Shown here in pieces: positions 1,883-12,175 of a DNA stretch of 33,250 bases. Location: assembly GCA_025056965.1 (NCBI GenBank), contig JANWVF010000054.1:1-33250 (forward strand), read 5' to 3'. The translations under genes and the position numbers were made by a program. Origin of the DNA: Thermoflexales bacterium (GTDB lineage Bacteria; Chloroflexota; Anaerolineae; J036; Brachytrichaceae). The stretch's first letter is position 1. Each line of letters begins with the position of its first letter. The notes under the pieces were generated by a model. The model was given only the letters and a program-made list of their open reading frames with translations, had not been told where the DNA came from and searched no databases.

Positions 1883-3715
1883 TCAACCATCCGAGGGCGG
1901 TGAAGACTTGGAAGCCCTTGCTTGACGATGCGCTCGTGAGTCGAAATCGGCGTGAGCACCCGTCAAGTCGGCCAGAAAGTCTAGGATAGCGCGCTGAGTC
2001 TCTGCGGGGCATTCCTCGTGGACGAGATGACCGGCGCCGGTGAGCACACACAAGCGGGCGGCAGGCAGGATGTGCGCCAGCCTGTGGCCGTCGCCGACCG
2101 GGAAGACCGGGTCACGCTCGCCCCAAAGCAACAGCGTGGGGTGGTCAATCGCGGCGAGGTTGTGCGGCACCGGCTGAATACCGTCCTTGGGCGAGCGCGC
2201 CTGCCACACCTGAGCCAGCGCCGAGCCGCGCACGTGCAGCGGGCCGGCGTAGCCTTTCACCACCGCGGGGGTGATCCAGTTATGCTTGGCCGAGACAAAA
2301 CGCAGGCCCGGTCGCACCAGCCAGGGCGATGTGGAATAAAAGGCCAGCACGTAGCCGAGGACAGGCAAGCGCACCCAGCGCGCGATGCCGGGCCGGCCAG
2401 TCGCGAAGGCTTCTGGAGCCAGCGCAACCAACGATCGCACGCGCTCCGGCGCAAGGATGGCGACCTGCATAGCGACGCGCCCGCCGAACGAATGCCCGAC
2501 GAAGTGGGCACGTCGCACGCCCAGCGCATCCAGCACGCCCAGGATCAGCTCGGCCTGCGTCTGCGTCGTGTAGATCGGTTCGGCCGGGCGGGCCGATGCG
2601 CCGTAGCCGAGTTGATCCACGGCGATCACGCGGTAGCCGGCGGCAAGCAGCGCCGCCTTGACATGCCGCCAGGTGAAGACCGAGGCGGCGAAGCCGTGGA
2701 TCAGGACGACGACCGGTGCGTCGTGCGGCCCGTCATCGGTATAGTGGACGGCGTAGCCATTCACCCACACGAATTGATCGTCGCTGGCGAACTCGCGCAG
2801 GTTCAGGCGCTCGCGCAGCGGCGTTAGGATGTATGCGCCCCACACCACTGCGCCGGCCAGCGCCAGCGCAACGACGCCAGCGATCGAGAAAGTCATCGCA
2901 ATCTGCGGGCCATAGCCGGTGGTCTGCTGGGCCACCAAAACAACGAACGTCGCGGTCAAGCCGGTTAGCGCAATCGCGACGGTGATCTGTTCGTATTGGC
3001 GGATCGGCCTGCGCCGAGCTAACCGGCGCATCAGCCAAAGCAGTGCAACGGCGATCAGCGGCGGCACGAGCAGCGCCGGCCAGTGGCCCCATTGCAAATA
3101 GTCGCGCACCTCCCACCAATTGATCGGATAGCGCGCCAGCACGTGCGGGGCGAAGTTCTCCATGATGCCGATGTCGAGCGCATAGCGCGCTATGCCCACC
3201 GGCTCGCCCCACACCGCCACATAGTAGCGCCCGGTCTGCGGCATGACCACCTCGATCTTGGCGCGCGGGAAATACACCATCTGGGTGAAGATATCGAAAT
3301 AGTCGAACGTGCCGTCGCTGGTAGCGATGACGGCGCCCATCCCTTCGGGGATCTCGAACGGGAGCTGCTCGGCCGGCCGAGGCAGGCCAGGGCCGATCAG
3401 CGCGATGGTGGGGTTGAACGCGCGCAGCTCTTCGTGGCCCGGAATGAAGATCTCGGCCTTGAAGCGATCGCCAGCCTTGTAGTCGAACCGGGTCATGTCC
3501 ACGTCGTCCGCCGACGATAGCTCGCCCAGCACGAACCACATGAACCACGGCTCCGATACATACTGGCCTTCCTCGAACAGGCCATAGTCGCCGCCCGGCG
3601 CATTGGTCTCTAGGATCGGCACTTCGGCGCGCGCCGTTCGCCGATCGGCGATCAACGACGCCACGAGAGCGAGGATCAAGGTGGGCGCGAGGACGAGCAT
3701 GCGGGCGAACTTCAT
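1883..3715 (-). CDS. Membrane-anchored alpha/beta hydrolase with extracytoplasmic N-terminal domain
   Basis: The 610-residue protein has three parts. Residues 7-24 form a signal peptide or anchor. Residues 30-205 form an extracytoplasmic beta-rich domain with no motif I recognise. Residues 212-296 hold about three membrane helices. Residues 312-585 are a classic alpha/beta hydrolase: HGF oxyanion strand at 340-342, nucleophile elbow GHSFG with Ser409, acid Asp535 in GERDPVFP, and His563 in GAGHLVHEE. All three catalytic residues are present, so it should be an active esterase, lipase or C-C hydrolase; the substrate is unknown. With three helices after the N-terminal segment, topology depends on whether residues 7-24 are cleaved, so the side on which the hydrolase lies is uncertain. 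It is followed after three bases by the DUF6062-like gene. Pairing this hydrolase with a secreted sensor-like domain is unusual. Confidence 0.8.
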   Translation of the reverse strand: MKFARMLVLAPTLILALVASLIADRRTARAEVPILETNAPGGDYGLFEEGQYVSEPWFMWFVLGELSSADDVDMTRFDYKAGDRFKAEIFIPGHEELRAFNPTIALIGPGLPRPAEQLPFEIPEGMGAVIATSDGTFDYFDIFTQMVYFPRAKIEVVMPQTGRYYVAVWGEPVGIARYALDIGIMENFAPHVLARYPINWWEVRDYLQWGHWPALLVPPLIAVALLWLMRRLARRRPIRQYEQITVAIALTGLTATFVVLVAQQTTGYGPQIAMTFSIAGVVALALAGAVVWGAYILTPLRERLNLREFASDDQFVWVNGYAVHYTDDGPHDAPVVVLIHGFAASVFTWRHVKAALLAAGYRVIAVDQLGYGASARPAEPIYTTQTQAELILGVLDALGVRRAHFVGHSFGGRVAMQVAILAPERVRSLVALAPEAFATGRPGIARWVRLPVLGYVLAFYSTSPWLVRPGLRFVSAKHNWITPAVVKGYAGPLHVRGSALAQVWQARSPKDGIQPVPHNLAAIDHPTLLLWGERDPVFPVGDGHRLAHILPAARLCVLTGAGHLVHEECPAETQRAILDFLADLTGAHADFDSRAHRQARASKSSPPSDG

Positions 3716-3896: not shown

Positions 3897-5276
3897 ATGA
3901 GCCGCACCACTAGGGCGCTGATCGCATCTGCATTAGCAGCAGGGTTAACGCTGATGCTCTCGTCTGGCCAATTGATGGCACAGTTCAATACATTCAGCTA
4001 TCAGGGCCGGCTGACCAACAACGGCGTGCCGGTGAACGAGACGTGTGACTTTCAGTTTGGCCTATGGGACAACAGCACTCTCAGCACACAGATCGGCACA
4101 ACACAGACGCTCACTGTGACCGTGACGGGCGGTTACTTCACCGTGCCGGACCTAAATTTTGGGGCGGGTAGCATTACCGGCCAGCCACGCTGGCTGGCGA
4201 TCGCCGTGCGCTGCCCAACGGGCAGCGGAAGCTACACCCCACTGAATCCGCGCCAAAGGCTGACGCCGACGCCGCATGCCTTAGCCCTACCGGGCTTTTG
4301 GACTCGGCCAAACATCACTAGTCCCAACATCATTGGAGGATACACGGATAACCAGGTAGCGAATGGGGTGGTCGGCGCGACGATCAGCGGTGGAGGCACA
4401 AACGGAGGACTCAACCAGGTCACCGACGAGTACGGCACGGTAGGAGGCGGCACGAGCAATCGGGCAGGCAATGCCTCAGGGTCATTGTCGGACGCATGGT
4501 ATGCCACCGTCGGTGGTGGGCGATCCAATCTCGCCAGGGGTAGCTATGCCACAGTGGGCGGCGGCTTTTACAATTCCGCGGGCGGCCATACTGCTTTCAT
4601 CGGCGGGGGCAGCACGAACACGGCAGACGGTGACTATGCTACTGTGCCCGGTGGCGTCGAGAACAGAGCCGACGGTGATTACAGCTTTGCCGCTGGCAGA
4701 AGGGCAATCGCGCTGGCCGCCGGCATGTTCGTATGGGCCGACAGCCACGACGAGAATTTCTCCGGCAGCGCCCCTAACTCTTTCATCGTGCGCGCTTCCA
4801 ACGGCATCTTCTTCGGCAAGTGCATCACCTGCACCGGCGCATCATCCGGTAAATACATTGATACGTGGACCGGCGCGCACCTGACTAACGGCGGAGCGTG
4901 GGTCAACGCCAGCGACAGGGCGATCAAGGAGAACTTCGCAATTGTAGATGCGCGCCGCATCCTGTCCGGCGTGATCAGCCTGCCGATTCAGACGTGGAAC
5001 TACACCGTCGAGAGCGACACGATTCGCCACATCGGACCGACGGCACAAGACTTCTACGCCGCATTCAGCGTGGGCGCGGACGATAAGCATATCGCCACAG
5101 TGGATGCCGACGGCGTAGCGCTGGCGGCCATTCAAGGCTTGCACCAGCTTGTGCAGGAGAAAGACGCCCAGATGGCCAGCCTACAAGCGCAAAACGCTGC
5201 GCTCCAAGCCAAGCTCGCCGTCCTAGAGGCGCGCCTGGCGGCGCTAGAGCAGCACATTGCAGGAGGGCAGCGATGA
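3897..5276 (+). CDS. Secreted YadA-head-like protein with C-terminal peptidase S74 (intramolecular chaperone) domain
   Basis: The 459-residue protein starts with a signal peptide (about 1-28, cleavage near LMA-Q). Residues 30-130 form a beta-rich domain. Residues 160-270 carry repeats of the type ATVGGGxxNxAxGxY, as in the left-handed beta-roll heads of trimeric adhesins such as YadA. Residues 339-410 match the S74 domain of phage tail spikes: SDRAIK at 339-344 and IGPTAQDFY at 379-387. In endosialidase this domain drives trimerisation and then cuts itself off using a Ser and a Lys five residues later; Ser339 and Lys344 keep that spacing. Residues 411-455 are a strong coiled coil. The mature product is probably a surface trimer released from its chaperone, which is inference. 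The stop overlaps the next gene's ATG. Confidence 0.8.
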   Translation: MSRTTRALIASALAAGLTLMLSSGQLMAQFNTFSYQGRLTNNGVPVNETCDFQFGLWDNSTLSTQIGTTQTLTVTVTGGYFTVPDLNFGAGSITGQPRWLAIAVRCPTGSGSYTPLNPRQRLTPTPHALALPGFWTRPNITSPNIIGGYTDNQVANGVVGATISGGGTNGGLNQVTDEYGTVGGGTSNRAGNASGSLSDAWYATVGGGRSNLARGSYATVGGGFYNSAGGHTAFIGGGSTNTADGDYATVPGGVENRADGDYSFAAGRRAIALAAGMFVWADSHDENFSGSAPNSFIVRASNGIFFGKCITCTGASSGKYIDTWTGAHLTNGGAWVNASDRAIKENFAIVDARRILSGVISLPIQTWNYTVESDTIRHIGPTAQDFYAAFSVGADDKHIATVDADGVALAAIQGLHQLVQEKDAQMASLQAQNAALQAKLAVLEARLAALEQHIAGGQR

Positions 5277-5542
5277 AGCGGCTTGTCATTCTGATCGCAG
5301 CCGCGCTGTGGCTGGGCGCGAGCGCCGCCACTGCGCAAGTCGGTGGCAGCTACAACTTAACGTGGAACACGGTGGACGGTGGCGGGGCGACCTTCAGCAC
5401 CGGCGGAACGTATAGCCTAGGTGGGACGATTGGCCAAGCCGATGCGCAGCCACAGGCAAGCGGGGGAACGTATGTCCTGCAGGGCGGCTTTTGGTCACCG
5501 CCCGGCTGGCTGGTCCACATGCCTGTTACGCGCAAGCCATAA
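5273..5542 (+). CDS. Small secreted GGFW-motif protein
   Basis: An 89-residue protein with a signal peptide (about 1-21, ending in ATAQ). The mature part is a short Gly/Thr-rich beta repeat: WNTVDGGGATFSTGGTYSLGG, then GTIGQ, then GGTYVLQGGFW. I recognise this pattern from secreted proteins of Chloroflexi and other environmental bacteria, but no function is known to me. The ATG overlaps the stop of the S74 gene (ATGA), so translation is coupled and the two products are probably made together. Residues 75-89 (WSPPGWLVHMPVTRKP) do not look like a membrane anchor or sorting signal. A role on the cell surface beside the adhesin-like protein is inferred from context only. Confidence 0.65.
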   Translation: MKRLVILIAAALWLGASAATAQVGGSYNLTWNTVDGGGATFSTGGTYSLGGTIGQADAQPQASGGTYVLQGGFWSPPGWLVHMPVTRKP

Positions 5543-5608: not shown

Positions 5609-8536
5609 CTATTCCGCCTTGTCGTCGGCAGCTTTGGCCGCGCCTTCGGTCTGAGCGCGCTGTCTGCGTCGGCGCAGCAACTCCGAGGCGGTAGCGGTGG
5701 CCTGCTGCGATGCAGGCGGCTGCGTCCCGGCGGCCTGAGATGAAGATGACGGCGTCTGCGCCGACCGGCGCGATGCGATCTGCGCCCCCGGCTCGCGGGT
5801 GACGCGCGCCTTGGCGCGCAGCAGTTGTTCCACGCGCGCGCGCGATTCCAAGCTGCCGGCCGGCATCAACTTCTCGGTGGATGCACCGAATAGCCGACGA
5901 AGGCCAAACACGATTCGCCGCACGCCGACGTCGAAAGGCAGCAGCAAGGCTGCCAGCGCCAACAGCAGTGGGAAAAGGTCGGCGCGCGAGGCCACAACCG
6001 GTGCATTCAGAGCGAAGGCCTGGGACGGCGCGGCCAATGCTTCGCCGCCGCCGAGCAGCGCCCAGTCACGCAGGTTCTCCTCGCCACCCTCCACCTGCGC
6101 GTACTCCGGCGAATATGGCCGCACGTAGGCGATGACCGCCTCGGCCAAGCCGTCCGATGGCCGACGCTCATCCACCGCCGTCACGGTCGGGGCGACGCGC
6201 ACGAAGTACGCGCCGGCCTGCTCGAGGTAAGTCTCTGCCTCGTAGCGGCCCGGCGCGATCTGCGTCAGCGCAAGCTCGCGCGTCAGGCCGTCGCCATCAA
6301 TCACGGTCGCCGTCAGCTTCAAGTCTTCGGCGATCTGAGCCTCCGGCACGTCGGCGACGATGACGGTGCGCTCATCGCGCTGCTGCACGTTCACCTGGAT
6401 GGATGATGAACCGCGCTCCAGGATCGTCCAACGGATGGCCTGTGCCCAGAATTTGGGGAAGCCGTTCCAGCGCACCCAGTTCTTGGCCCAACGGCCGGTT
6501 GCATCTGAGGTGAATGCCACGGCCCGACCCAGGCCGTATTGCCAGGCTGCGAGCAGTGGATCGCTCTCGTTGGCGCGCAGGATGACCTGCGCAGCCGGCT
6601 TGGCCACGCTGGCGACATAGCCCTGCAGGGCAGGCACTTCGCTGATGCCGCTCAGGATCGGGCTGGCCATGCCCAGTTTAGGGAAGAATGGCTGCTCGAC
6701 GATGTAGCTGCGCTGCGCGAGAGCAGCTTCCTCGGTGAAGATGGTCGGCAGGTTGGCAGCCTTGTCGGTGAAGTGGTAGCGGCCCTTGCCGATGGCCGCG
6801 ATGCGCTTGAGGAAGGGAACGTCGGTTCCGTCGCCGAAGGCCACGACGCTCAGCGTCGTGTTGTACTTGTCGCGCATCCTCTGCACCAGTTCCGGGACAC
6901 CCTCCTGGCGCTCCGCATCGTTGCCGTCGGCCAATAGGATGATGAACTTAGACAGCTTACTGGAGCGGGCGACGATTTTCTCCGCCTCCAGCAGGGATTC
7001 ATAGACGTAGATGCCGCCGCCGCCCGGCGCGATGCTCAGGATCTGGTTGATGTACTTATTCTTGTCGCGTCCCTGGAACGGCCCGATCAGGTCCACCAGC
7101 TCGGTGTCGAAGCCGATCACGGTCACCTCGTCATCGTCATTCACTAACTCGGCGACGCGCGCGGCGGCTTCGGCTGCCAAGCGCATCTTGGTCACGCCGT
7201 TCTCGATGGCGCTCATGCTGCCGCTTTTGTCCATCACTACTACGATGGACACCGAGGGGAAGCGCTTAGGGTCTTTGACTTGCATCTCCACGGGCAGCGT
7301 CTCTTCCAACGGCGTCTTGAAGTAGCCGCCGACGCCGTAGCTATTCGGGCCACCGATGACCACCAAGCCGCCGCCGATGTCGCGGACGTAGCTCTGCAGC
7401 GAATACATGGCGCGCAGCGAGAGCTCGCGCGCCGGAACGTTGACCAAAACTACGGCCTGATAGCCGGCCAGCGACTGGATCTCGCTGGGCATCGCGCGCG
7501 GCGAGACCACGTCATACTCGATGCCGGCGGCGGCGAGCGCCTCCTTCAGCGCGCCTACTTCGTCCACGCCGGCAGAAGAGAATTCGGGCGGCGTCGCGAC
7601 GAGCAAAACGCGCGGCGGCCCGCCGATGATCACAGCCGATGACAGCGCGTTGTTTTGCGGGCGCACGTCGGCTTCTGGCGCAATTTGAGCGCGGAAGACG
7701 CCGAAGCCGGTGCGCGTCGCGTTGGCGCGCACGCTGAACTCGTTGAGCCCAGGAGTGAGGTTGACGACTTCCTGCGCCACGACATCCGGCCCAGAGAGCA
7801 CAGTGAGCTGTGCGCGCATGGCCTGGTTGGCGCGCACGACCACTTGCAGTGGGATGATCTGGCCGGCCGAGGCGCGCTGCGGCGCATCCACACGCTCAAC
7901 GGCAGCGTCCGGCCCCTGCACCGACGGCAGCGGCACAACGTCCAGCCGAATGCCAGCAGCGCGCACCAGGCGGGCAGCAGACTCGGCATCGCCGATGTTC
8001 TGCTTGCCATCGCTCAGCAGCACGATGCGCTTGGCAGCGTCAGACGGCAAGAGCGACATGCCCAGCCGAATGGCTCCTTCCACGTTGGTGCCGCCCGACC
8101 GCACCTGCGCACTGATTGGCGACAAGTCGCGCAGGTCGGACATGGCGCGTTCGATGTGAGCGTCGGCGCCGAAGACGACTACGGCGGCTTGGTCGTTGCC
8201 GTCGGCGCGCATGTGACGCAGCGCCTCGCGCACGAACTGCGCAGCCTGTTCTACGCCCGCTGGCCCGACGCTGTCCGAGGCATCAATCAGGAAGACCACA
8301 GCCAGCTTGCCGGTGAACTGAACAGCCTGCGCACCGGCGAGGGCGAAGATCAGCGAAGTGAGCAGCGCCCAGCGCACCCCAAGCGCGGCAAGCGCCGACT
8401 TATCCAGCCGCCGCCTCCAAGCCAAACGCTCGCCAGCCACCCTGCGCCGTGTCACCAGGCGCGGCAACGCAATCAGCGCACTGATCGGCAGAAGCGCCAG
8501 CAGGATCAGAAAGATCGGCTGGCCGAACGACAGCAT
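5609..8536 (-). CDS. Large membrane protein with two VWA domains and a glutamine-amidotransferase-like domain
   Basis: This 975-residue protein is of the BatA/YfbK-like membrane VWA type. Two N-terminal helices (about 5-27 and 52-70) precede a first VWA domain with MIDAS residues DASDS (85-89), Thr150 and Asp176. A class-I amidotransferase-like Rossmann fold follows (about 305-415, with GGGLVVIGGPNSYG at 388-401). A second VWA starts at DKSGS (436-440) with Asp537; its mid-domain MIDAS Thr is replaced in GGGGIYVYE (505-513). Residues 640-790 include a beta-sandwich. A C-terminal helix (about 854-870) and a low-complexity tail rich in Ser, Ala and Gln (900-975) end it. It probably binds Mg2+-dependent partners at the cell surface or envelope; the partner is unknown. 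No AAA (MoxR) gene is adjacent. Confidence 0.8.
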   Translation of the reverse strand: MLSFGQPIFLILLALLPISALIALPRLVTRRRVAGERLAWRRRLDKSALAALGVRWALLTSLIFALAGAQAVQFTGKLAVVFLIDASDSVGPAGVEQAAQFVREALRHMRADGNDQAAVVVFGADAHIERAMSDLRDLSPISAQVRSGGTNVEGAIRLGMSLLPSDAAKRIVLLSDGKQNIGDAESAARLVRAAGIRLDVVPLPSVQGPDAAVERVDAPQRASAGQIIPLQVVVRANQAMRAQLTVLSGPDVVAQEVVNLTPGLNEFSVRANATRTGFGVFRAQIAPEADVRPQNNALSSAVIIGGPPRVLLVATPPEFSSAGVDEVGALKEALAAAGIEYDVVSPRAMPSEIQSLAGYQAVVLVNVPARELSLRAMYSLQSYVRDIGGGLVVIGGPNSYGVGGYFKTPLEETLPVEMQVKDPKRFPSVSIVVVMDKSGSMSAIENGVTKMRLAAEAAARVAELVNDDDEVTVIGFDTELVDLIGPFQGRDKNKYINQILSIAPGGGGIYVYESLLEAEKIVARSSKLSKFIILLADGNDAERQEGVPELVQRMRDKYNTTLSVVAFGDGTDVPFLKRIAAIGKGRYHFTDKAANLPTIFTEEAALAQRSYIVEQPFFPKLGMASPILSGISEVPALQGYVASVAKPAAQVILRANESDPLLAAWQYGLGRAVAFTSDATGRWAKNWVRWNGFPKFWAQAIRWTILERGSSSIQVNVQQRDERTVIVADVPEAQIAEDLKLTATVIDGDGLTRELALTQIAPGRYEAETYLEQAGAYFVRVAPTVTAVDERRPSDGLAEAVIAYVRPYSPEYAQVEGGEENLRDWALLGGGEALAAPSQAFALNAPVVASRADLFPLLLALAALLLPFDVGVRRIVFGLRRLFGASTEKLMPAGSLESRARVEQLLRAKARVTREPGAQIASRRSAQTPSSSSQAAGTQPPASQQATATASELLRRRRQRAQTEGAAKAADDKAE

Positions 8537-8578: not shown

Positions 8579-9898
8579 CTAGCCTCCGCCGTATTGCGCC
8601 ACGAAGTTCCTTGCTATGTCGCGCACCGCTTGCGGGATGAGCGTAGTAGGGTCAATCAACCGTTTCACCAAGGCGGTGTTCTCCCGCGCGTCACTTAGCC
8701 ACCGATCAAAGGCGCGGCGCTGCTCGTTGACGAGTTCACCTTCGGAGAGCGGCCGATCCTCTCGACCGAGCGGGAACAAGATATAGAAGCTGCCGAAGGC
8801 CGACGTGATGATCGGCGTTGGCGTGCCGAGCGGTGCGTCGGTCAACCGGTCGGCGATGTCTGCACCGAAGCGGTCCTGGACGCTCGGCCGGCTGATCCAG
8901 TCTACGCTCGCGCCATTGCCGATCGGCGCGGGCTGAGTGATTGCGTTGGTCTGCGAGATCAACGTCGTAAAGTCGAGTTCCCCGCGCGCCAAGCGATCGG
9001 CCGCTTTCTGCGCTTCATCCAATGAGTTGAAGCGGACGTAGTCGAATTTGTAATGGAGGGCACGCTTCGGCACTTCCTGGGCAAAAGCCTCTTGCAGCCG
9101 TCGGCGGTATAAACCGGCGGCAATCAACTCGCGCAGGTCCTGTTCGGTGATGCCAAGAGGTTGGTAATCGGCGAGCGTGTTCTGCAGGAGCAGGCGGAAG
9201 TCGCCCTCGGTGATAGACGTCGGTTGGAGACGCGGCGTCGCCGTGGGGAGGATCGGCGTTGGCGTAGGGGCGACGGTCGGCGTGATGCCGGTCTCCGAGG
9301 TCACGGTAGCCGCGGCGGTGGGGGTGGGCGCAGGCGTGTCGGGGGTTACCGGCGTATAGGTCGGGAAAGGCGTCAGCGTCTTGCGGTAGAAACCGAAGCC
9401 GCGCTCCAGCTCCTCGGTTACCTCGTCTGGCGAGACGGTAATACCACGTCGGCTCGCTTCTTGACGTATGAGCAGGTCATCAATCAGCGCGCTCAGCGCT
9501 TCTTGCGCAATTCGTTCGGCGCTGCTCTCTTGGACGATCTGTTGGAGCTGTTGTTGATAGAACTGCTGGAAGAACGACGCGCTGGGATCGTTGTTTTGCT
9601 GGAATTGTGCGACCTCCTGCTGAAGCTGATTGAAGCGCCCGATCAACTGCGCCTGATCGTAACGCATGCGCTTCTGCAATTGCTGGACGCTGATCACCTG
9701 ATCGCCAACGCTGGCGACCGCGCGCTGAGGTTGGACGATGAAGATGTCCACTAGCGCAGCGGCGACCAGCACGACGGTCACCAGCGCGAGCAGGAGGCTA
9801 CCGACGATGATGATTTGGCGCTGACGGCGCTCGCGCTCATAGCGGGACATCGGCGTTCGCATGAGGCGCGCGCCGATCGGTTCGCTTCTCTTGTTCAT
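8579..9898 (-). CDS. SurA/PpiC-like extracytoplasmic peptidyl-prolyl isomerase
   Basis: The 439-residue protein has a cytoplasmic basic N-terminus, one membrane helix (about 29-52), and a SurA-type N-terminal helical domain with long Gln-rich helices (60-165). A low-complexity linker of Thr and Pro (about 172-225) interrupts it. A parvulin (PpiC) region follows (about 275-375), with weak conservation around FTTLISQTNA and FGSFYILF. It would fold or guard secreted proteins outside the membrane. It lies about 41 bases behind ssb in the same orientation, so it may share the rpsF promoter. No clear Shine-Dalgarno precedes the ATG at 9898; Met13 or Met17 are possible alternative starts. Active-site residues cannot be assigned by eye, so isomerase activity is not certain. 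Confidence 0.75.
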   Translation of the reverse strand: MNKRSEPIGARLMRTPMSRYERERRQRQIIIVGSLLLALVTVVLVAAALVDIFIVQPQRAVASVGDQVISVQQLQKRMRYDQAQLIGRFNQLQQEVAQFQQNNDPSASFFQQFYQQQLQQIVQESSAERIAQEALSALIDDLLIRQEASRRGITVSPDEVTEELERGFGFYRKTLTPFPTYTPVTPDTPAPTPTAAATVTSETGITPTVAPTPTPILPTATPRLQPTSITEGDFRLLLQNTLADYQPLGITEQDLRELIAAGLYRRRLQEAFAQEVPKRALHYKFDYVRFNSLDEAQKAADRLARGELDFTTLISQTNAITQPAPIGNGASVDWISRPSVQDRFGADIADRLTDAPLGTPTPIITSAFGSFYILFPLGREDRPLSEGELVNEQRRAFDRWLSDARENTALVKRLIDPTTLIPQAVRDIARNFVAQYGGG

Positions 9899-9939
9899 AC
9901 TTCAAGAAGGTGGACGGTAGGGCACGCGCGGGGCAGCGT

Positions 9940-10332
9940 TCAGAAAGAGAGCGACTCCTCGTCGGTCGCTTCGGAGTTCGGATGATTATCGTGGTGTGAC
10001 CGGCGATCGCCCAGCACCAGCATCTCATTCGCAACGATCTCAGTGCGGTAGTGGCGCCTGCCCTCGCTGTCTTCCCAACCGCGCGTTTGCAGCCGGCCTT
10101 CGATGTATACCTGTTGGCCGCGCGAGAGATGCTGTTTACAAATCTCGGCCAGGCTGCCCCAAGCGATCACGTTGAACCATTCGGTCTCTTCGTGCCGCTG
10201 TCCGTCCGGTGTCGTCCAATCCCGGCGCGTCTCTATGGCGAACGAAGTCACAGCCTTGCCGCTAGGCGTGTATCGAATTTCGGGGTCACGTCCTAAGTGA
10301 CCGATGATCATGACTTTATTCAGTCCGCGCAT
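9940..10332 (-). CDS. ssb: Single-stranded DNA-binding protein
   Basis: A 130-residue SSB. The OB fold spans about 1-105 (LNKVMIIGHLGRDPEIRYTPSG, then TEWFNVIAWGSLAEIC and GQQVYIEGRLQTR). A short hydrophilic tail ends in DEESLSF, an acidic, aromatic-ended tip like the DDDIPF partner-binding tip of other SSBs. It coats single-stranded DNA in replication, repair and recombination. It follows rpsF after 72 bases on the same strand, the common bacterial rpsF-ssb order. The usual next gene, rpsR, is absent here and a PpiC-like gene takes its place. The tail is short for the family. Confidence 0.95.
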   Translation of the reverse strand: MRGLNKVMIIGHLGRDPEIRYTPSGKAVTSFAIETRRDWTTPDGQRHEETEWFNVIAWGSLAEICKQHLSRGQQVYIEGRLQTRGWEDSEGRRHYRTEIVANEMLVLGDRRSHHDNHPNSEATDEESLSF

Positions 10333-10404
10333 CCTGCTCGCACTCCACCTACGCGCATCTGACCTGCGTCGTTCCGCGTCATCCGTCGCACGTCACACCG
10401 GTCG

Positions 10405-10827
10405 TCAAGGCGTCGTCATCGCTGCGGGCGCGTCGGGGCGCGCTTCCGACGCAGCCGATGGTTGGCCGGATTCGCTGGCGTTTGTGGCCTCGACTTCTGC
10501 GCCGCCCATGATGTCGGGCGCATCCGCCTCTGCACTGTCGCGCTCATCAGCGCGCACGAGCAGATAGCGGATGACGTCTTCGGTCAAGCGCAGCCGCTGT
10601 TCGATGCGCGCCAGGCTTGACGCTTCAAGCTTGACGATGGTGAAGATGTAGTGTCCCTCGCGATATTTGCGGATCGGATAAGACAACGGACGCAGGCCCC
10701 ATTGCGTCGTTTCCACCACGGCGCCACCTTCGGCCGTCACGAAGCTGTTAATGCGTTCGATCAATGCGGCCAGCGCGTTCGCATCGAGATCCGGTTTCGC
10801 GATGTAGGTCAGTTCATACTTGCGCAT
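10405..10827 (-). CDS. rpsF: 30S ribosomal protein S6
   Basis: A 140-residue S6. The ferredoxin-like core (1-97) begins MRKYELTYIAKPDLD and contains WGLRPLSYPIRKYREGHY, the standard S6 signature. It binds the central domain of 16S rRNA together with S18. Residues 98-140 form an Ala/Glu-rich, probably disordered extension, longer than in Escherichia coli. An AGGAG on the minus strand (10846-10850) lies 18 bases before the ATG, which is far for a Shine-Dalgarno; no in-frame upstream start looks better. A good sigma-70-like promoter sits about 125 bases upstream. It is the first gene of an rpsF-ssb-ppiC-like run. Confidence 0.95.
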   Translation of the reverse strand: MRKYELTYIAKPDLDANALAALIERINSFVTAEGGAVVETTQWGLRPLSYPIRKYREGHYIFTIVKLEASSLARIEQRLRLTEDVIRYLLVRADERDSAEADAPDIMGGAEVEATNASESGQPSAASEARPDAPAAMTTP

Positions 10828-10951
10828 ATTGAATCGTATGTGTTGCTCCTTTCCTCGGGATAGCTGCCCTTGTTTCGCGGCATAGATCGCCGTTGCAAGA
10901 GCGGAAAGCCGGTCGCATCGAGACGTTCGTGCGGCCGTGAACAGGCTGGAT

Positions 10952-10981
10952 AATATATCACGAGTCGGGTTTGATTTACAA
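10952..10981 (-). promoter_or_regulatory. Candidate rpsF promoter
   Basis: On the minus strand TTGTAA (10981-10976) and TATATT (10957-10952) are separated by 18 bases, a fair -35/-10 pair with five of six matches in the -10. The predicted start lies near 10943, giving a leader of roughly 115 bases before the rpsF ATG. Such a leader could hold ribosomal-protein autoregulation, but I could not establish a structure. The divergent gene at 11021 shares this intergenic region. Confidence 0.45.
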
Positions 10982-11020
10982 TCGCCACGATCGTCGGTTT
11001 CGTCGCCCTTTCATCCGCCT

Positions 11021-12175
11021 ATGAGCAGTTCCATCGTCATCTCAGAGTGTCGCACGCCCCGCGAGCGCCGACAGTTCATCGAGTTCCAATGGGAGATTTA
11101 TAAGGACAACCCGTATTGGGTGCCGCCCCTGCTGAGCGAGCGCATGGCGTTTTACGACAAGACGAAGAACCCTTTCTTTGAGCACTCCGACGCCGCCATG
11201 TTCGTCGCGCAGCGCGCCGGGCGCATCGTCGGCACCATCGTCGCGATTCAGAACAACCGACACAACACTTTCCATAACGAGCAGACCGGCTTCTTCGGCG
11301 GTTTCGAGGCGATCAACGATTACGAAGTGGCTGCTGCGCTCTTCGACGCGGCGCGCGATTGGGCAAAAGCGCGCGGCATGAACGTGCTGCGCGGTCCGGC
11401 CACGCTCAGCCTGAACGATGAGTGTGGCTTGCTGGTGGACGGCTTCGACAGTGAGCCGATGGTGTTGATGCCATACAATCCGCCCTACTATGCTGCGCTG
11501 ATCGAACGCTACGGCTTCCGAAAGGCGATGGACTTATGGGCATGGTGGGTCTCCACCGAGACGGCGCAGCGGATCATCGGCGAGCGGCTGGAGCGACTGA
11601 CCAAGCTGGTTGAGAGGCGCGGTCGCTTCACCGTGCGCACGGCGGATTTCAATCACCTGGCGCGCGAGGTACAAGCCCTCAAGGCAGTTTACGCCAGCGA
11701 ATCCGGCGCGTGGCGCGAGAACTGGGGCCACGTGCCGATGACCGATCACGAACTCGATCACGTGGTCAACAACCTGAAGCAATTCGCCGACCCCGATTTC
11801 ATCCTGATCGTCGAGTCGCAGGGCAGACCGGTTGGCATCGGCATCGCGCTGCCCAACGTCAATCGCCCGCTGCGCAAAGCGTATCCTCACCCGCGCACGC
11901 CGGAATGGTGGACGTTGCTCAAGTTCCTCTACTATCGCCGCAAGATGGTGAACGCGGTGCGCGTGATCTTGGTCGGGGTGCTCAAGGAATACCGCGCGTC
12001 CGGCATCGAAGCTGTGCTGATGCTGCGCATGTTGCAGACCGGCATCGCCAAGGGGTATATCGGCGGCGAGATGTCGTGGATTCTGGAGACGAACGACGCG
12101 ATGAACCGGATCATCGCCGAAGTCGGCGCAACGGTTTACAAGACTTATCGCATCTATGATCTCCCCATCGGTTGA
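11021..12175 (+). CDS. GNAT-superfamily N-acetyltransferase-like protein
   Basis: From the ATG at 11021 the product is 384 residues and begins SSSIVISECRTPRERRQFIEF, the start seen in homologues I recall. An ATG 84 bases upstream is in frame, but that extension looks like leader DNA. Residues 15-200 form a GNAT-like fold (FVAQRAGRIVGTIVAI is the beta4 region), and 230-380 form a second one ending in ETNDAMNRIIAEVGATVYKTYRIY. These double-GNAT proteins are widespread, and their substrate is unknown to me. The last 20 bases overlap the sugar transferase gene, so both are likely co-expressed. A role in lipid or cell-surface polymer acylation is context-based inference. Confidence 0.75.
   Translation: MSSSIVISECRTPRERRQFIEFQWEIYKDNPYWVPPLLSERMAFYDKTKNPFFEHSDAAMFVAQRAGRIVGTIVAIQNNRHNTFHNEQTGFFGGFEAINDYEVAAALFDAARDWAKARGMNVLRGPATLSLNDECGLLVDGFDSEPMVLMPYNPPYYAALIERYGFRKAMDLWAWWVSTETAQRIIGERLERLTKLVERRGRFTVRTADFNHLAREVQALKAVYASESGAWRENWGHVPMTDHELDHVVNNLKQFADPDFILIVESQGRPVGIGIALPNVNRPLRKAYPHPRTPEWWTLLKFLYYRRKMVNAVRVILVGVLKEYRASGIEAVLMLRMLQTGIAKGYIGGEMSWILETNDAMNRIIAEVGATVYKTYRIYDLPIG

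Follow-up and report, generated by a model that had tools for sequence, protein, structure and literature searches.

The locus described here belongs to an Anaerolineae (Chloroflexota) bacterium and encodes a secreted protein with a YadA-type head and an S74 chaperone domain, followed by an overlapping gene for a small secreted protein carrying a GGFW domain. This raises the question of how such a fibre would be retained at the cell surface, and whether the small protein has a part in it.

Gene arrangement and expression signals

The window (the whole 33,250-nucleotide stretch of DNA that was analysed) is contig C158 of a 3.13-Mb genome that is 99.4 % complete. Both ORFs lie where a sequence-only reading of this DNA had placed them, with the ATGA overlap that it described (Table 1). 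No further gene accompanies the pair, which is flanked by a divergent gene (1883–3715, minus strand) and a convergent gene (5609–8536, minus strand). The fibre ORF is preceded by a strong Shine–Dalgarno sequence (gaggagg), and the second such sequence, at its 3′ end, together with the overlap makes translational coupling of the two ORFs likely. A search for a sigma-70 promoter and a terminator of the pair gave no convincing candidate. Overlaps of the ATGA or GTGA type were present at 28 of 112 GGFW genes, 25 of the 28 with an embedded Shine–Dalgarno sequence. Two further copies of the pair were found in the window genome (contigs C47 and C154), both without a full S74 domain.

Table 1. Features of the fibre gene and of the small gene that follows it (positions in the window).
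Feature	Position	Strand	Content or basis
Fibre gene, 459 aa	3897..5276	+	Signal peptide, NTD, YadA-head beta-roll, S74, coiled coil
Predicted Sec signal peptide, aa 1-29 (...LSSGQLMAQ)	3897..3983	+	Sequence; residues 3-21 helical in the model
NTD, aa 32-129, Ig-like beta-sandwich	3990..4283	+	Alignment, model
YadA-head-like beta-roll repeats, aa ~161-304	4377..4808	+	UspA1 match; alignment to BoaA head
Peptidase_S74, aa 339-390; predicted self-cleavage before Ser339, with Lys344	4911..5066	+	Pfam match
C-terminal helix/coiled coil of chaperone end, without transmembrane tail	5106..5273	+	Model
Shine-Dalgarno GGAGGG in last codons of fibre gene, and ATGA overlap	5261..5276	+	Sequence
Small secreted GGFW protein gene, 89 aa	5273..5542	+	Overlaps fibre gene by ATGA
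Parts of small protein: signal peptide to ~aa 21; GGFW domain aa ~24-74; C-terminal tail LVHMPVTRKP aa 80-89			

Domain organization of the fibre protein

The S74 domain and YadA-type head proposed in the sequence-only reading were both recovered. Peptidase_S74 (PF13884) was matched at E 2e-7, with 31.6 bits against a gathering cut-off of 22, and the domain keeps the S-D-x-x-x-K pattern with Ser339 and Lys344 five residues apart. Residues 169–319 matched the YadA-type head of UspA1 at E 2e-19 (phmmer), and in the AlphaFold model, a monomer built with 24 relatives, the beta-roll at about residues 160–300 aligned to the YadA-like head of BoaA with a Z score of 6.0. The coiled coil expected after S74 appeared in the same model as a single long helix at residues 404–455. 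The S74 region itself was poorly modelled and of low confidence, as expected in a monomer because the domain folds as a trimer. Whole-chain fold matches among viral models include pithovirus YadA-head and S74 proteins.

A domain of about 100 residues at the N-terminus (NTD) had not been separated out in that reading. It is common to all fibres of the family, carries the motif YQGRL...LxPRQxLTPTPxAL and was modelled as a confident beta-sandwich of six strands (residues 32–122, pLDDT about 80–94). The closest solved folds to the NTD were generic Ig/FnIII-like beta-sandwiches (Z<7), which is uninformative.

The catalytic residues are highly conserved, with Ser in 30/30 and Lys in 31/31 of the S74 relatives in which that position aligned. 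A divergent relative, L106, has Asn there, with a shorter spacing. The fibre probably trims itself.

Of 29 Chloroflexota S74 fibres, 24 carry a single transmembrane-like helix and a basic end beyond the S74 domain and coiled coil; the window fibre has no such helix. Such C-terminal helices were seen in bacterial S74 fibres at loci L060, L061, L067, L088, L094, L106, L137 and L171, the last being Haur_5099 of Herpetosiphon aurantiacus. In these relatives, by analogy, the chaperone would stay in the membrane while self-cleavage released the fibre from it. The arrangement is that of MYRF, a membrane-tethered S74/ICA protein in which S74 frees the released part, there a transcription factor (PMC3742443); the window fibre, without the helix, differs from MYRF in this respect. 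No description of a MYRF-like topology in bacterial S74 fibres was found in the literature, and literature searches on S74 in Chloroflexi, on Herpetosiphon and on the YLP-box (see below) gave nothing relevant.

Association of the NTD with the small GGFW gene

Models were built for the NTD (A2) and the small protein (A1), and both were searched across the same 60 related genomes, giving 103 NTD places and 90 GGFW places after fragments had been left out. Of the 103 NTD genes, 68 were followed on their own strand by a GGFW gene at no more than 5 kb, against an expectation of about 0.35, and in six further cases the GGFW gene lay directly upstream. Both domains were present in 27 genomes and neither in 17, with 10 having only the NTD and 6 only GGFW (Fisher p 0.0005, without correction for kinship). 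In a count of GGFW domains over the wider genome collection, an NTD gene adjoined the GGFW gene, or was separated from it by a single gene, in 56 of 83 cases, with several of the others at contig ends. Some NTD fibres, that of Herpetosiphon included, had no GGFW neighbour.

Distances between NTDs and between GGFW proteins were correlated over 76 pairs (r 0.46), a value reached in 37 of 5000 trials when partners were shuffled among paralogues of the same genome. This comparison of sequences shows that NTD and GGFW pairs stay together, a co-divergence that linkage alone could produce.

The adjacency predicted by the sequence-only reading was thus recovered in other genomes, and its pairing of an S74 fibre with a small secreted protein stood as far as the recurrence of the pair is concerned. 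It did not stand for the S74 domain: the consistent companion of the small gene is the NTD. GGFW was located 213–357 bp downstream in 12 of 21 S74 places, and the same NTD, with the same partner, also bears a 'GHAMKA...GKAM' tip, a phage-like sandwich (found within the genus of the window itself, at L054) and others. Since the partner is shared by fibres with other tips, the pairing is one of NTD with GGFW and not of S74 with GGFW. The conserved unit, as read from these gene neighbourhoods, is NTD plus GGFW, with S74 as one of several fibre tips.

The 'GHAMKA' tip is an unnamed C-terminal domain ('GHAMKA..RAxGAILGKAM..LVLVNLQ') standing in place of S74 on NTD fibres of several phyla, among them L059:14149-15687, L074:1741-3282 and L116:2687-4291; it had no Pfam match on those fibres that were scanned. 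Between fibre and GGFW there is often a gene for a secreted protease of C10, trypsin-like or M12B type, giving operons of NTD fibre, protease and GGFW in that order at L059 (12687-14135), L074 (3373-4962), L075 (7689-9317), L081, L108, L109 and L158. Several of these proteases share a terminal segment resembling 'PFNTVxEG...VRIGAP'. Also at L059, one fibre has its NTD and its S74 region in different overlapping frames (9820-11031 and 10595-11998), probably due to a frameshift or assembly error.

The small GGFW protein and its C-terminal tails

The GGFW domain was found in a genome collection in Chloroflexota, Armatimonadota, Planctomycetota, Krumholzibacteriota, Verrucomicrobia and one gammaproteobacterium. 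The AlphaFold model of GGFW alone was poor (pLDDT 57.7) and was left out of the fold search. The domain is constant, and the segment that follows it varies with the phylum. Chloroflexota GGFW proteins usually end in YLPLVLR, the YLP-box, for which NCBIfam has a curated model as a putative sorting motif (NF050076); this model matched 12 of 32 GGFW members at E<0.1, in L167 and L137 at or over the cut-off. A YLP-type end was present on 17 of 22 GGFW proteins versus 19 of 659 other ORFs from these loci, on none of 374 ORFs from other phyla, and on none of 91 fibres. In Planctomycetota (Phycisphaerales and others) the tails are dockerin-like, with dockerins over the cut-off in L128 and L140; Armatimonadota have weak dockerin-like ends, and the Krumholzibacteriota member L151 has a FlgD/T9SS-like tail with FlgD_ig over the cut-off.

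The small protein of the window shares the position but not the recognized form of the YLP-type tail carried by most Chloroflexota members, as it matched neither YLP model and was unlisted at E<=1. Its tail can be aligned to the YLP motif and to the tails VIYAPIARKP and LAHVPIARRP of genus-mates, and on this alignment is a diverged version not captured by the YLP models. A DNA pattern for tails of this type gave nine matches in the window genome, against four for a reversed control; of the matches that were read back, those at ends of long ORFs were two GGFW tails, from the window and from C47, and that of a DUF11 protein. A scan of the genomes with NF050076, a model of 11 positions only, gave no match, and none for the positive control either, so this negative does not indicate that the motif is missing. 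The DUF11-repeat protein, which is surface-like (L174:2-937, on C47), ends in AFVPLARRP, resembling the GGFW tails of the window genome, and ends of this type may represent a YLP-box variant specific to the lineage.

At loci where no NTD gene was detected, GGFW also occurs alongside secreted proteases and FG-GAP proteins. At two loci it is fused N-terminally to a large surface protein (L123:5923-9300 and L150:6001-10191), these fusions comprising Ig/DUF11 repeats ending in YIPLVFRN and an M4 peptidase with Kelch repeats.

A model for surface retention and its alternatives

Our leading interpretation, to which we give roughly even weight, is a surface-fibre operon in which a trimerizing, self-trimming S74 fibre is retained by a small GGFW anchor. 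In this two-gene operon of the Anaerolineae bacterium, both proteins would be exported through Sec, and folding of the fibre trimer would be templated by the C-terminal S74 domain and coiled coil. The cut before Ser339 would then remove the chaperone end and leave a mature fibre of NTD and YadA-head beta-roll; the coiled coil would not be the stalk of the mature fibre because it belongs to the part that cleavage would remove. Coupled translation from one mRNA would yield the small GGFW protein, held at the cell surface by its C-terminal tail, and this protein would keep the fibre in place, with the NTD as its most likely binding site. We infer trimerization, cleavage, NTD–GGFW binding and surface retention from sequence, together with continued function of the window's divergent tail as a sorting signal.

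The partner rather than the fibre bears the apparent retention signal, since the tails are on GGFW proteins and YLP tails were absent from the fibres scanned. The weakest step is the one from a tailed partner to an anchor that binds the NTD. Because proteases and FG-GAP proteins are also among its companions, GGFW may act as a dock of broader use, and NTD binding is possibly not its sole role.

Those same associations with unrelated large secreted proteins, along with the small size of the protein and the overlapping genes, would also suit a transient helper in secretion or folding of the fibre, its tail directing the small protein to the envelope. We consider such a helper unlikely, given that S74 fibres bring their own chaperone and that different surface-retention modules recur on GGFW across phyla, which suits a resident protein better than a transient one. 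Less likely still is that GGFW is a building block of the fibre itself, such as a cap, tip or pilin-like subunit comparable to the CPR pilus protein PamT. The GGFW domain does resemble the N-terminal part of PamT (NCBIfam NF058579), which 19 of 32 members matched with a best E of 2.7e-8, but the window protein reached only 15.8 bits (E 0.007) against an equivalog cut-off of 240, and no other pilus-system component was seen beside the window pair.

The two genes might also be merely co-regulated, with no contact between their products and with the fibre shed or held through its NTD on another element. The absence of GGFW from 10 of 37 NTD-bearing genomes is in keeping with this, and the transmembrane helix at the S74 end of many relatives could hold an uncut fibre. 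We nevertheless regard this as no more probable than the building-block reading, because the adjacency is about 200 times that expected by chance, extends over many genera and several phyla and occurs in both gene orders.

Relation to known systems

The head beta-roll repeats are shared with the trimeric autotransporter adhesins YadA and UspA1, but a YadA autotransporter was ruled out. The YadA anchor barrel (PF03895) was absent from the protein and from the 99.4 %-complete genome, with a positive control in E. coli, and no Omp85 was found in that genome, in line with the earlier suggestion that outer-membrane autotransporter machinery is lacking. A phage or prophage origin was likewise rejected: no relative of the fibre, NTD or GGFW was present in viral contigs, and phage records matched only the S74 end. 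The fibre shares the S74 family and catalytic Ser–Lys spacing with the intramolecular chaperones of phage endosialidases and tailspikes; unlike these, the window pair is a chromosomal operon with signal peptides.

The closest architecture is that of the mosaic adhesive trimeric (MAT) proteins of Bdellovibrio, which have a signal peptide, a conserved beta-rich N-terminal domain of about 130 aa and a trimeric beta fibre with swappable tips, some ending in S74 with SDxxxK; the surface element bound by the N-terminal domain was stated to be unknown (PMC10769870). The GGFW protein is a concrete candidate for the element left open in that study, being encoded alongside MAT-like fibres across several phyla and bearing a tail of each phylum's own retention type. 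A general two-part display can be proposed, although only tentatively and with less confidence than the anchor at this locus: an S74 fibre, membrane-tethered in most relatives, would cleave itself after trimerizing and be caught by a small GGFW dock with a phylum-swapped sorting tail. If true, this would hint at the means by which MAT-type N-terminal domains are retained on cells, and an anchor role would supply a function for both the unnamed GGFW domain and the putative YLP-box motif.

The window family resembles MAT in having a beta-rich domain directly after the signal peptide and in its mosaic build, with a conserved N-terminal end and variable tips with and without S74. It differs in that the body of the window fibre is a YadA-head roll and that a conserved partner gene follows. 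We therefore call the family MAT-like rather than MAT, the likeness seen being one of architecture. Bdellovibrio 'cell wall anchor' proteins also start with a TYQGR motif, which is a lead only.
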